DNA of 64,000 bases, taken from Micavibrio aeruginosavorus (GTDB lineage Bacteria > Pseudomonadota > Alphaproteobacteria > Micavibrionales > Micavibrionaceae). The stretch covers positions 1,018,342 through 1,082,341 of the forward strand of contig CP066681.1 of NCBI GenBank assembly GCA_016432265.1, given 5' to 3'. The stretch's first letter is position 1; each line of letters begins with the position of its first letter. The position numbers were made by a program, and so were the translations under genes. This document shows positions 19,827 through 24,501 of this stretch, piece by piece. The notes under the pieces are model-generated. The model made no database searches. It saw only the letters and a program-made list of their open reading frames with translations, and was not told the origin of the DNA.

Positions 19827-20300
19827 CTATGGGCTGAGATCCTGACCGGAGAGTTGCGACATATAGGCGACAAACTCGGGATCTTCGCCTTGCATCAGGC
19901 GGGGCAGGGCAGCTTGAAAATTCGGCTTTTTCAGCCATTCGCTGATATAGTCGACCCACGAGTTCCACATCCGGCGGTACTCGGGATCTTCTTCTGCTTC
20001 GAGCAGAATGAAACTTCGTTCGAACAGCGACACTACCATTTCATAAAGGATATATTGGCGGCGGGCGTCTTCGGGGTTGCCGAGCGGGGTTACGTGCATA
20101 TCCAGTTCCGGAAATTCGAACAGCTTATCCTGAATTTCCGTGTAATGATCCATCAGCTTGTCGTAAATTTCCTGCTGCTCGACGCGGCGCTCTTTTTGCT
20201 CCTGATGCAAAAAGATGGTTATGCCGAAAGGAATGCCGAAAACTGTGGCGATATAACTCGCCAGTTCCATCCATTCCAGAAATGATCCTATGCCTAACAT
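19827..20300 (-). CDS. Unknown membrane-anchored protein, 157 residues
   Basis: One N-terminal hydrophobic helix (about residues 11-31, YIATVFGIPFGITIFLH) is followed by a charged coiled-coil stretch (QEQKERRVEQQEIYDKLMDH) and a helical, acidic cytoplasmic domain with many aromatic residues (YRRMWNSWVDYISEWLKKPNF). The region ends in DPEFVAYM. I recall similar unnamed membrane-tethered proteins in other bacteria but cannot name a function. It converges on ispH with a 4-base gap and diverges from thrB. Confidence 0.78.
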   Translation of the reverse strand: MLGIGSFLEWMELASYIATVFGIPFGITIFLHQEQKERRVEQQEIYDKLMDHYTEIQDKLFEFPELDMHVTPLGNPEDARRQYILYEMVVSLFERSFILLEAEEDPEYRRMWNSWVDYISEWLKKPNFQAALPRLMQGEDPEFVAYMSQLSGQDLSP

Positions 20301-20399: not shown

Positions 20400-21353
20400 A
20401 TGGCTGTCTTTACCCCGCTCGATTCATCCCAGATTCGCGACCTTCTCGCCCTCTACCAGGCAGGGGATTACGTTTCGCATGAGGGTATACTTGAAGGGGT
20501 GTGGAATACGAATTTTCACGTCCACACCACCAAATCGCATATGATCCTGACGGTTTTTGAAGAACGGACGAACGTCGATGATCTGCCGTTTTTCTTTGCC
20601 TATACCGATCATCTGGTCAGGATGGGATTGTCCTGCCCGGGGCCGATCCTGACAAACCGCTATGAGCGCTCTGTCGAGATCGCCGGGAAGAAGGCGGCTT
20701 TATTTCCTTTTTTTAACGGGCGTTCTTTGACGCTGGCGCAGATTACCCCGGAGCATTGCGAAGATCTGGGGCGTTATCTGGCGCGCATGCATTTGGCAGT
20801 GGCCGATTTCATCGTGGAGCGCGCCAACGACATGTCCTTGTCAGGCTGGCAAAAACTGGCGGATAAAACACGCGCACGCGCCGATGAAGTGTGCCCCGGC
20901 CTGTCGGTTATGGTCGATCAGGAACTGTCGTGGCTGGTACAGCATTGGCCTGAGGCGCTGCCGCGGGGCGCTGTGCATCTGGATTTGTTTCCCGATAACG
21001 TTTTTTTTGATGAGGGCAAGGTTTGCGCCGTAATCGATTTCTATTTCTCGGCTACGGATATGCTGGCTTACGATCTGGCGATTGCAATCAACGCCTGGTG
21101 TTTTGATTCGTCCTGTCTTTTCCGTCCTGATTGTTATCGGGCCTTGCTGCAGGGCTATGAATTGTTGCGCCCACTGACGTTTGCGGAGCGGGAGGCGCTG
21201 CCGGTCTTGCTGCGGGCAGCATCTGTACGGTTCTTGATGACTCGTCTGCATGACTGGCTGTTTCATGACCCGAAGAACTTTGTGAAGCCTCATGACCCGA
21301 TGGCGTATGTTGAGCGATTGCGCTTCCACCAGCAAGGGAATCGGTCGGCATGA
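20400..21353 (+). CDS. thrB: Homoserine kinase, type II (ThrB, APH-fold)
   Basis: This enzyme phosphorylates homoserine for threonine synthesis. It is the aminoglycoside-phosphotransferase-fold form found in alphaproteobacteria. The 317-residue product from the ATG at 20400 begins MAVFTPL, typical for the family; a GTG two codons upstream is less likely. The catalytic loop [13 protein letters not shown] (His-x-Asp-x4-Asn) and the metal-binding Asp in AVIDFYFS are intact. The stop overlaps the rnhA start (ATGA), so the two are translationally coupled, an arrangement that recurs in alphaproteobacteria. Confidence 0.93.
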
Positions 21354-21781
21354 CGGAATCCAGGCATGTAGAGATGTTTACTGATGGCGCTTGCAGCGGT
21401 AACCCCGGCCCGGGCGGGTGGGGGGCGATTATGCGCTGGAAGGGCCATGAGAAGGAGCTTTCCGGCGGCGAACACAAGACGACAAATAACCGCATGGAAC
21501 TGACGGCTGTCATACGGGGGCTGGCGGCGCTCTCGCGGCGGTGCAAAGTCGAGCTTTATACCGACAGCCAATACGTGCAGAAGGGCGTGCATGAGTATCT
21601 GGCGGGCTGGAAGGCGAAGGGGTGGCCCGAGAGGATTAAGAATCAGGATCTCTGGAAAGAGTTGGATACGCTCTTGCAAAAGCATGATGTCAGATTGCAC
21701 TGGGTGCGTGGCCACGACGGCCACCCTGAAAACGAGCGAGCGGACGCTCTGGCTCGAGCAGCGGTGCCGAAATTGCGCTAA
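21350..21781 (+). CDS. rnhA: Ribonuclease HI
   Basis: RnhA cuts the RNA of RNA:DNA hybrids during replication and R-loop removal. The 143-residue protein has the DEDD set: Asp12 in [11 protein letters not shown], Glu50 in NNRMELTAV, Asp72 in [10 protein letters not shown], and the C-terminal Asp in NERADALA. The basic handle [15 protein letters not shown] is present, so this is type HI. It is coupled to thrB by a 4-base overlap. Confidence 0.97.
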
Positions 21782-21866
21782 TCCGCAGCGAATCGATTCT
21801 ATGGCTGCATCGCCTTGCCGGGAGCGTCAATTGCCCCGATACCACGAAATTGTGAATACATGAGTG

Positions 21867-21875
21867 TTATCCACA
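21867..21875 (+). promoter_or_regulatory. DnaA box, perfect consensus
   Basis: TTATCCACA matches the high-affinity DnaA box exactly. A weaker two-mismatch inverted match lies at 21851-21859. One strong box in 254 bases is too little for a confident origin, so a DnaA-regulated promoter is the simpler reading. Confidence 0.5.
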
Positions 21876-21911
21876 AGCTATATAGGGTGATTCCGGAAAG
21901 AAACCAGAATT

Positions 21912-21926
21912 TTAAGATTCCATTAA
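21912..21926 (+). promoter_or_regulatory. CtrA-type site TTAA-N7-TTAA
   Basis: Two TTAA half-sites are separated by exactly 7 bases (GATTCCA). The spacer contains a GANTC (CcrM) site. It lies about 23 bases before a possible -10 (21949), the position used by CtrA-activated promoters. Confidence 0.5.
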
Positions 21927-21995
21927 GTGATTGGCGGCACTCTGGGGCTATGAGTTGAACAAGAACCGGGCCACCTAAGAGCCCATAACGCCAGA

Positions 21996-22015
21996 CAGCA
22001 CCGGGCAGGGTGTTG
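21996..22015 (+). other. Leader hairpin before the 161-residue gene
   Basis: CAGCACC (21996-22002) pairs with GGTGTTG (22009-22015) around a 6-base loop, with one G-T pair, in the presumed mRNA leader. The hairpin ends 8 bases before the ribosome site TAAGGAGG and may affect stability or translation. Confidence 0.35.
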
Positions 22016-22035
22016 CCGGGTATAAGGAGGATCAC

Positions 22036-22521
22036 ATGAAGTACGACCACTTTGACAGATACTGGGTTGAAAGCCTTGGAGGCGATCATAGCGAGTTTAT
22101 TTACAATAAAGATCAGATTACTTTGCCTTTGCCACCGCCACTTTCCGAGGAATCGCGCTTTGAGATGGAAGTATATGCCCGTTTCATGCGTCATTTGCGT
22201 CACGTCCCGAACAGCCGTATGGAGATTAAAATTCTATCCGCCATACAGTTCACTGCCGATATCATGGATCATGGCGATGCGTTGATCGCGAAGACACTGG
22301 TTGATATGGGTTTGCGCGCGCCGCGCAAGGCCTTTCCGATTACGTTTCTCGATTTTGCCGATAAATGCGCACAGCGCCGCAACTGGTCGGGAGGCAGTGT
22401 GCCGCCGCCGTCGGTTCTTTCACTGAAAGAACATTGGGATCATATCGGCGAAAACAGGTTTGCGACGGCGGGACGTGCACATTATGCGGTTTTCAATGAA
22501 AACATGTATGTGCGTGCATGA
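22036..22521 (+). CDS. Unknown 161-residue soluble protein
   Basis: The ATG at 22036 has an excellent ribosome site (AAGGAGG, 6 bases away). The protein has no signal peptide or membrane helix. It starts MKYDHFDRYWVESLGG, has a Pro-rich turn (LPLPPPLSEES), a likely helical core with ARFMRHLRHV, and ends ENMYVRA. I do not recognise a family. It is monocistronic: a long regulated leader precedes it and a strong terminator follows. The strong translation signal and cell-cycle-type promoter sites suggest a well-expressed, timed protein. Confidence 0.78.
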   Translation: MKYDHFDRYWVESLGGDHSEFIYNKDQITLPLPPPLSEESRFEMEVYARFMRHLRHVPNSRMEIKILSAIQFTADIMDHGDALIAKTLVDMGLRAPRKAFPITFLDFADKCAQRRNWSGGSVPPPSVLSLKEHWDHIGENRFATAGRAHYAVFNENMYVRA

Positions 22522-22550: not shown

Positions 22551-22583
22551 GAAAGGGGATGGCTTTGCGCCATCCCCGTTTTT
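22551..22583 (+). terminator. Rho-independent terminator after the 161-residue gene
   Basis: A perfect 9-bp stem GGGGATGGC (22555-22563) / GCCATCCCC (22569-22577), a 5-base loop and a GTTTTT run. It touches the stop codon of the convergent PBP gene, so the hairpin may serve both directions, although the leftward T-run is poor. Confidence 0.9.
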
Positions 22584-24501
22584 ATTGGTTGGTCGCAGGT
22601 TCGGCAAGGAGCCGGTTAATCAGGCCGTCGATGCCGTTCATCGCTGGGCGGTTCGAATACATGGGCTTCAGGGTATTTCTTTGAGCGGCGACACGCAAAG
22701 CCGTGGTCATGGTTTCGCGCCAGATTGCCGCAGGCAGTGATCCGCCGGTGACAGCCTTCATCGATGAATTATCGTCATTCCCCACCCATACGGCGCAGAT
22801 CAGGTTCCCGGAGAAACCGATAAACCATGCGTCCCTGAAGTCCTGCGATGTGCCGGTTTTGCCGGCGATTCTGTAGCCGGCAATTGCAGCGCCCTGACCG
22901 GTGCCGGTTTGCACCACGCCTTCCATCATATAGATCAGATTGGCAATCGATTGCTCGCTGGCGATGCGGCGCTCGGAAGCGAAAGGGGCGCGTTCATAGA
23001 CCAGGCGACCTGCCGTATCCTTTATGCGGATAATCCCGTAGGGGACGACAATAAAGCCGCCGCGGGCAATTGATGCGTAGGCAGTGGCCATTTCTATGAT
23101 CGGGACTCCGCTGCTCCCGAGCGCGATCGAAAGATCGTGCTGCAGCTCGCTTTTGACCCCAAGGCGGCGTGCGGTATCGATGACATTTCCGACCCCTGCG
23201 TTATAGGCGAGTTGAACCGCCACCGTGTTGAGGGAGCGGGCGAGCGCGAATTCCATCGGGACTTCGCCGAAATATTCATTCTTAAAATTGGTCGGTCTAT
23301 AGCGACCGTATTTGACGGGCTCATCAACGACCATATCGGAGGGGCGCATGCCTTGTTCGAGAGCGGTCAGGTAAACGATGGGTTTAAAGGATGATCCCGG
23401 AGCCCGCAAGGCGTCTGTAGCGCGGTTAAACTGGCTGGTGCGGTAATCTCGCCCGCCAACCATGGCCAGTACTGCGCCATCGGTATCCATCACCACCACG
23501 GCGGCTTGGGAAGCTTTCTTGGCCTCCCCTGATTCATCCAGTACGCGCTTGACGGCTTCTTCTGCGACTTTTTGAATTTCAGGAATCATGGTTGTTTCTA
23601 TGACCATGTCACTGGGAAGTTCCCCGGTCAATGTGGTCAGGTCGCTGACGATCCAGTCTGAATAAAACCGCTCGCCCGTGCCTTCGACAGGGCGTGTTTC
23701 CTGATCGAGGCGAAGGGTGCTGTTCTGCGCTTCTTCCTCTGTGATGAAGCCTGCATCCTTCATTGACGCGATCACGACTTTGGCGCGTTCAGCCGAGCGT
23801 TGCGGGTTGGCCTGCGGCGAGTAGCGCGAAGGCGCCTTTAGTAGACCTGCGATGATGGCGGATTCCTGAAGCGTCAGTTCTTTAGCGGATTTGTTGAAAT
23901 AGACGCGCGAGGCGGCTTCAATGCCGTAAGCTCCTGCCCCTAGGTAAACGCGATTCAAATAGGCACTTAAAATCTCATCCTTGGTTAGTTGCGTTTCCAG
24001 CCACAAGGCCAGTATGGCCTCCTGAATTTTACGTTTCAGTTTTTGTTCGGGTGTCAGGAACAGGTTTTTAGCCAGTTGCTGGGTGATCGTAGACCCGCCC
24101 TGTCGTGTGTTGCTGGTCAGGTTGTTGTATAGCGCGCGGGCAATGCCCACGGGATCGATGCCGAGGTGACTGTAAAAACGGCGGTCTTCGATCGCGAGAA
24201 CCGCGTAAATCAGATGCGGGGGGAGATCTTCGACCCCGATACTGACGCCTTTGAGTTCACCGTAGCGGGCAATCGTGCTGCCGTCGAGCGCCTGCACCGT
24301 GACGGCGTACTTACGCTCGAAATGCGGATCATCGATAATTCCGGGAAGTTCTGCCGCATACCATGCCACAATCAAGCCCACGACCAAGGACATCCATATC
24401 CCGGCGACCAGACAAAGGCGGGCCAGACTGATGATCAGCGGGCGTTCGCTCTTATGCGGTTTTTTGCGGCTCTTGCCTTTGCTGGGTTTACGCGTGGCCA
24501 T
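22582..24501 (-). CDS. Class A penicillin-binding protein (PBP1A family)
   Basis: This bifunctional peptidoglycan synthase is anchored in the inner membrane. A Lys-rich cytoplasmic tail and one transmembrane helix (about residues 24-48) precede a GT51 transglycosylase with catalytic Glu in AIEDRRFYSHLGID and the motif QGGSTITQQLAKNL. The transpeptidase follows with all three motifs: SxxK in GSSFKPIVYL, SxN in ARSLNTVAV, and KTG in GKTGTSQDF. At 639 residues it is shorter than Escherichia coli PBP1A and lacks the extra insert domain, like many alphaproteobacterial PBP1A homologues. It stands alone and leftward; 110 bases separate it from the GNAT gene. Confidence 0.94.
   Translation of the reverse strand: MATRKPSKGKSRKKPHKSERPLIISLARLCLVAGIWMSLVVGLIVAWYAAELPGIIDDPHFERKYAVTVQALDGSTIARYGELKGVSIGVEDLPPHLIYAVLAIEDRRFYSHLGIDPVGIARALYNNLTSNTRQGGSTITQQLAKNLFLTPEQKLKRKIQEAILALWLETQLTKDEILSAYLNRVYLGAGAYGIEAASRVYFNKSAKELTLQESAIIAGLLKAPSRYSPQANPQRSAERAKVVIASMKDAGFITEEEAQNSTLRLDQETRPVEGTGERFYSDWIVSDLTTLTGELPSDMVIETTMIPEIQKVAEEAVKRVLDESGEAKKASQAAVVVMDTDGAVLAMVGGRDYRTSQFNRATDALRAPGSSFKPIVYLTALEQGMRPSDMVVDEPVKYGRYRPTNFKNEYFGEVPMEFALARSLNTVAVQLAYNAGVGNVIDTARRLGVKSELQHDLSIALGSSGVPIIEMATAYASIARGGFIVVPYGIIRIKDTAGRLVYERAPFASERRIASEQSIANLIYMMEGVVQTGTGQGAAIAGYRIAGKTGTSQDFRDAWFIGFSGNLICAVWVGNDDNSSMKAVTGGSLPAAIWRETMTTALRVAAQRNTLKPMYSNRPAMNGIDGLINRLLAEPATNQ

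Follow-up and report, generated by a model that had tools for sequence, protein, structure and literature searches.

A candidate CtrA-activated promoter with an upstream DnaA box precedes a small-protein gene conserved in the Micavibrio order

The presence of CtrA and DnaA motifs in one promoter is already known from Caulobacter: 25 of the 77 promoters with a DnaA motif in that organism also carry a CtrA motif, full CtrA sites generally lie near -35, and the CtrA site of ctrA P2 lies at -39 (Zhou et al. 2015, PMC4287350). A survey of the alphaproteobacterial DnaA regulon reported DnaA sites without taxonomic conservation except at ctrA (Brilli et al. 2010, PMC2877005), and this reported lack of conservation between taxa makes the role of DnaA in transcription difficult to trace by comparative means. 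Our literature search found no work on CtrA in Micavibrio-type bacteria. The locus described here, upstream of a 161-aa protein that we call U161, resembles the Caulobacter DnaA + CtrA promoters in that two master regulators would meet at a single promoter. What is new is the retention, throughout an order, of one composite element before one and the same gene, together with the gene family that it appears to drive.

Candidate sites in the spacer and regulators of the host genome

The locus is a spacer of 254 bases (21782-22035) between rnhA and the 161-aa ORF. It lies in the window (the whole 64-kb stretch of DNA that was analysed), itself part of a 2.46-Mb single-contig genome. An earlier note on this DNA had listed a perfect DnaA box, a TTAA-N7-TTAA site, four GANTC sites (one of them inside the CtrA spacer) and an unusually strong ribosome site before the gene. 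All are present at the following positions:

21350-21781, + strand: rnhA (RNase HI), conserved upstream neighbour (Pfam RNase_H, 1.2e-46)
21790-21794, no strand: GANTC (CcrM-type methylation site), no fixed position among relatives
21795-21799, no strand: GANTC, no fixed position among relatives
21867-21875, + strand: DnaA box TTATCCACA
21889-21893, no strand: GANTC between DnaA box and CtrA site, at the same offset (-23 from the CtrA site) in 6/63 relatives
21912-21926, + strand: full CtrA site TTAA-N7-TTAA, reading TTAAGATTCCATTAA
21916-21920, no strand: GANTC inside the CtrA spacer
21938-21943, + strand: -10-like element CACTCT (A-N3-T, i.e. -11A and -7T)
21950, + strand: predicted transcription start (A, 7 bases past the -10-like element), placed by geometry
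22024-22030, + strand: strong ribosome-binding site AAGGAGG, read from the sequence
22036-22521, + strand: U161, 161-aa protein of a Micavibrio-order family
22219-22305, + strand: U161 helices 62-77 and 81-90 (AlphaFold2), the most conserved part and a tentative HTH-like pair
22582-24501, - strand: penicillin-binding protein (transglycosylase/transpeptidase; Pfam), convergent neighbour

The box is the sole DnaA box in the 64 kb (0.27 expected), and TTAAGATTCCATTAA is the sole TTAA-N7-TTAA (0.39 expected). At least one such site was found in 23% of window shuffles for the DnaA box and in 31% for TTAA-N7-TTAA; in the window sequence alone each of the two long sites is weak evidence and could be there by chance, so the question had to be settled by comparison with relatives. 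GANTC is depleted across the window (149 observed vs 273 expected), and four in 254 bases are therefore a local excess. An Rfam search of the spacer gave no match, and the predicted leader showed no RNA structure signal (z = -0.06).

The earlier note had also asked for ctrA, gcrA and ccrM to be looked up in the genome. All three are encoded, together with dnaA and MucR. CtrA scores 428 bits with NF045991, against a cut-off of 350, and also matches PDB 4qpj. The CcrM homologue matches 6pbd (E 9e-163) and has a RAMA domain; with NF050803, a model specific to Caulobacter, it scores 625 and stays below the cut-off of 830. The genus Micavibrio is placed elsewhere in NCBI taxonomy, but these CtrA, GcrA and CcrM genes are alphaproteobacterial. 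The same genome has a Flp-pilin-like gene (L099, G000:C1:839432) that is probably a second CtrA target, with a full CtrA site and the -10 grammar of the U161 promoter upstream of it; Caulobacter pilA likewise has a CtrA site (PMC11264516).

Conservation, spacing and promoter grammar

We compared the spacers of 70 loci of the family, using dinucleotide shuffles of the same spacers as control. A full CtrA site is found in 63/70 spacers (0.9 loci in shuffles, maximum 5) and a perfect DnaA box on the gene's strand in 40/70 (0.1 in shuffles), while perfect boxes on the opposite strand number 2/70 (0.04 in shuffles). Both sites, CtrA and perfect DnaA box, occur together in 35/70 spacers vs 0.005 in shuffles. 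Seven spacers carry no full CtrA site: in two (L006 and L015) the sequence breaks off at a contig end, and in the other five the site has a single mismatch. Each of the 68 intact spacers has a CtrA site with no more than one mismatch. The rest of these loci, 215 kb in all, contains only 2 CtrA sites, along with 14 DnaA boxes. Counted by genus, the full CtrA site is present in 27/32 and the perfect box in 21/32.

We also searched 143 genomes for the combined pattern TTATCCACA-N20..48-TTAA-N7-TTAA, with the reversed pattern as control. This gave 46 matches, 35 of them at the U161 promoter, vs 2 for the control; the window's own genome has one match only, at the U161 promoter. TTAA-N7-TTAA occurs at 33 sites in that genome and the reversed pattern at 50, showing that CtrA sites are not common there by themselves and that there is no genome-wide enrichment of full sites. 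Since the joint conservation far exceeds the shuffled value and the combined pattern is found almost only at U161, we conclude that the sites are not due to chance. The CtrA site and the DnaA box, which the earlier note had proposed to look for upstream of orthologues, are thus kept there, and at constrained spacing. On the protein tree the DnaA box is scattered: supported branches require at least 9 changes, and a single recent inheritance therefore does not account for the pattern. Several genera have lost the box or keep a degenerate form of it, and family f3 has none, which means that it is not essential everywhere.

The distance from box start to CtrA-site start is 44-45 in most loci (45, the commonest value, in the window), 33-34 in others, and 24-26 in a few, the last always with imperfect boxes. 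Imperfect boxes hold the same distances as perfect ones, and where boxes are doubled, as in some genera, the second member restores 44. In family f7 the box lies at a distance of exactly 34 from a TTCA-N7-TTAA site, and family f3 retains TTAA-N7-TTAG but has no box. The spacing clusters lie about one helical turn apart, suggesting that CtrA and DnaA may have to be placed on a fixed face. Tested for periodicity, the spacing favours about 10.5, but several other periods also reach significance through the main peak at 45 by itself. The test is thus not independent of that peak, and helical phasing stays a suggestion rather than something proven. Two loci (L011 and L013, genomes G023 and G052) carry two facing DnaA boxes (TGTGGATAA, 5 bases, TTATCCACA) upstream of U161.

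Downstream of the CtrA site, an unsupervised motif search picked out A-N3-T, which occurs at a constant offset in 62/63 loci and has the spacing of -11A and -7T of a -10 element. With the start predicted 7 bases past it, the 5' end of the CtrA site falls at -38, an activator position, and the centre of the DnaA box near -79; the CtrA site would accordingly occupy the -35 region of the promoter. This near universal pairing of CtrA site and -10 element, together with a box that is perfect in 40/70 spacers and missing in f3, is what one would expect of a plain CtrA-activated promoter in which the DnaA box plays a minor part, is there by chance, or serves only to titrate DnaA. We consider that reading unlikely, however: perfect boxes reach 400 times the shuffled number, nearly all lie on one strand (40 vs 2), and they keep to a few preferred distances that are shared by the imperfect boxes.

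The CcrM/GcrA part of the interpretation, which the earlier note had placed beside CtrA and DnaA, stood only in part. GANTC falls inside the CtrA site in 31/63 loci and is enriched in the family spacers outside that site (9.8 vs 2.2 per kb), but these other GANTC sites are not fixed in position. Because GANTC is fixed only inside the CtrA site, and because intergenic GANTC enrichment is general in CcrM-bearing alphaproteobacteria (PMC3973325), a possible role for CcrM/GcrA is a weaker proposal than the roles for CtrA and DnaA.

Finally, a DnaA box beside a CtrA site recalls the Caulobacter origin, and the inverted box pair at the U161 promoter of G023 and G052 would also fit a replication-linked site that precedes a gene by coincidence, be it an origin or a datA/DARS-like site for DnaA loading; this was the less likely alternative in the earlier note. 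The skew speaks against it. GC skew stays positive throughout the window, and in the sampled genome it changes sign near 0.2 Mb and 1.6 Mb (origin and terminus, respectively), not at 1.04 Mb, where the U161 locus lies mid-replichore; dnaA is located at 0.55 Mb. Most species have a single box, and the promoter grammar points at the gene. The absence of both a skew switch and a DnaA-box cluster rules out a replication origin at the locus, and a replication-linked site of any of these kinds is very improbable.

The U161 family and its predicted fold

Orthologues of U161 are found in 88/143 related genomes and in 71/89 of its own Micavibrio-type family; most of the named relatives that encode it carry the label Micavibrio sp. 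or unclassified Alphaproteobacteria. The gene order rnhA / U161 / convergent penicillin-binding protein is kept in nearly all orthologue genomes, and synteny extends to distant families of the order, with U161 identities of 25-40%. The impression in the earlier note that the gene belongs to no known family was upheld, as U161 has no family match in Pfam (E up to 1), NCBIfam or PHROG. A profile search of 387 genomes sampled from the class yielded, outside the family, only GcvP-like local matches in two genomes. A phage origin of U161 was rejected, with no match in phage records.

Three other ORFs deserve mention. One relative has a U161-like stretch (FRAPLAAFPQEY...) within a long ORF of about 620 aa (L191, G035:C1:915620), possibly a domain-level paralogue. 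A second, divergent U161 copy (L077, G064:C130:12723) lacks both the CtrA site and the DnaA box upstream, and nothing in its vicinity matches rnhA or the penicillin-binding protein. In the window, a 157-aa ORF on the - strand (19827-20300), between ispH and a thrB-like kinase, matches no family over the Pfam cut-off and shows weak DUF6249 similarity only.

The AlphaFold2 model of U161 has five helices and a core pLDDT of 92.5. The conserved stretch S-D-A-x-V-A-K-x-L-V-D-x-G-L-R-A-P-R comes after a helix, and by eye the two might be taken for a helix-turn-helix pair. Fold searches with the full model and the trimmed core, in PDB and viral libraries, gave nothing significant (best E about 0.5). 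Several of the best insignificant hits are DNA-binding domains (Sap1, MarR and LysR type); as no fold match is significant, DNA binding by U161 is a guess.

A different origin is hinted at by PF21478, the glycine dehydrogenase C-terminal domain, which 15/50 U161 members match weakly (best E 8.6e-5) over VAKxLxDxGxxAPxxxFP. Were U161 a remnant of glycine dehydrogenase (GcvP), its regulatory sites would be incidental. All PF21478 matches fall below the Pfam cut-off, however (best 22.9 bits vs a curated 27), and we rejected an assignment of U161 to this domain. GcvP has a strand where the U161 model has helices, and it is absent among the fold hits shown. A GcvP remnant thus seems hardly credible.

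We also weighed whether U161 replaces SciP, in the sense that it binds DNA, is expressed under CtrA and acts back on CtrA promoters. SciP was found in 3/37 family genomes searched, and a search of the window's own genome, where CtrA, MucR and GcrA are present, gave no match; the modelled U161 core is small and helical, with the apparent HTH-like pair. These points would suit a replacement, which we nevertheless regard as quite unlikely, since the match to DNA-binding folds is not significant (best E about 0.5) and two SciP-bearing genomes (G009 and G030) also carry U161, with an altered promoter. In G009 this promoter has no box; in G030 the distance of the box differs from the usual ones and the CtrA site has one mismatch. 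In the third SciP-bearing genome, G026, the U161 spacer (L015) is cut by a contig end.

A putative CtrA-DnaA switch compared with known systems

Taken as a whole, the comparison makes it likely, in our judgement, that the spacer is a CtrA-activated promoter with one upstream DnaA site, driving a small Micavibrio-order protein. In the mechanism that we propose, phosphorylated CtrA would bind TTAA-N7-TTAA in the -35 region and recruit RNA polymerase to the weak -10 (A-N3-T). DnaA would occupy its box, which lies about 80 bp before the predicted start (some 60-70 bp in certain relatives), and, held on an apparently constrained helix face, modulate the promoter. We infer both the binding and the direction of regulation; DnaA would most likely be a co-activator, linking expression to the initiation of replication. 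In about half of the species, the GANTC within the CtrA site may also confer sensitivity to methylation (CcrM/GcrA). As the putative CtrA + DnaA switch is conserved at a fixed mutual distance, U161 is probably timed in the cell cycle, that is, made at a set cell-cycle moment across an order of often predatory bacteria.

U161 could then itself be a cell-cycle effector, possibly an HTH-like DNA-binding one, and the locus puts forward a gene without a name, found throughout the order, as a candidate for a cell-cycle role in Micavibrio-type bacteria, which include predators. In a bolder and rather doubtful version, the order would have a regulator of its own: U161, possibly of HTH type, would play a SciP-like role from a composite, fixed-geometry DnaA-CtrA promoter and couple the start of replication to the switch between attack and growth.

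How does the U161 locus compare with described systems? SciP (DUF1153, PF06627) is likewise a small protein under CtrA control, control that is predicted in the case of U161. SciP sites lie at -60 to -90, a position that the DnaA box occupies here. U161 differs from SciP in being larger and in occurring in genomes without it; we detected no sequence similarity between the two, and a DUF1153 domain is absent from U161 (no Pfam match at E up to 1). In the CtrA full-site promoters of Caulobacter crescentus, TTAA-N7-TTAA with its 5' end near -35 activates transcription (PMC4287350), a position close to the predicted -38. Unlike these, the present promoter serves a gene family confined to the Micavibrio order and has a DnaA box at fixed upstream distances. 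Likewise, the DnaA + CtrA combinations of Caulobacter are assorted, whereas here one geometry (44-45, about 34 or 25) is kept in many genera. The locus follows the same CtrA, DnaA and GANTC logic as described by Brilli et al. (2010, PMC2877005), and adds to that survey a clear case of a conserved DnaA site. With a DnaA box beside a CtrA site at constrained distance in dozens of genera, the U161 promoter would offer a clean natural test of the joint readout of the replication initiator and the CtrA pathway.
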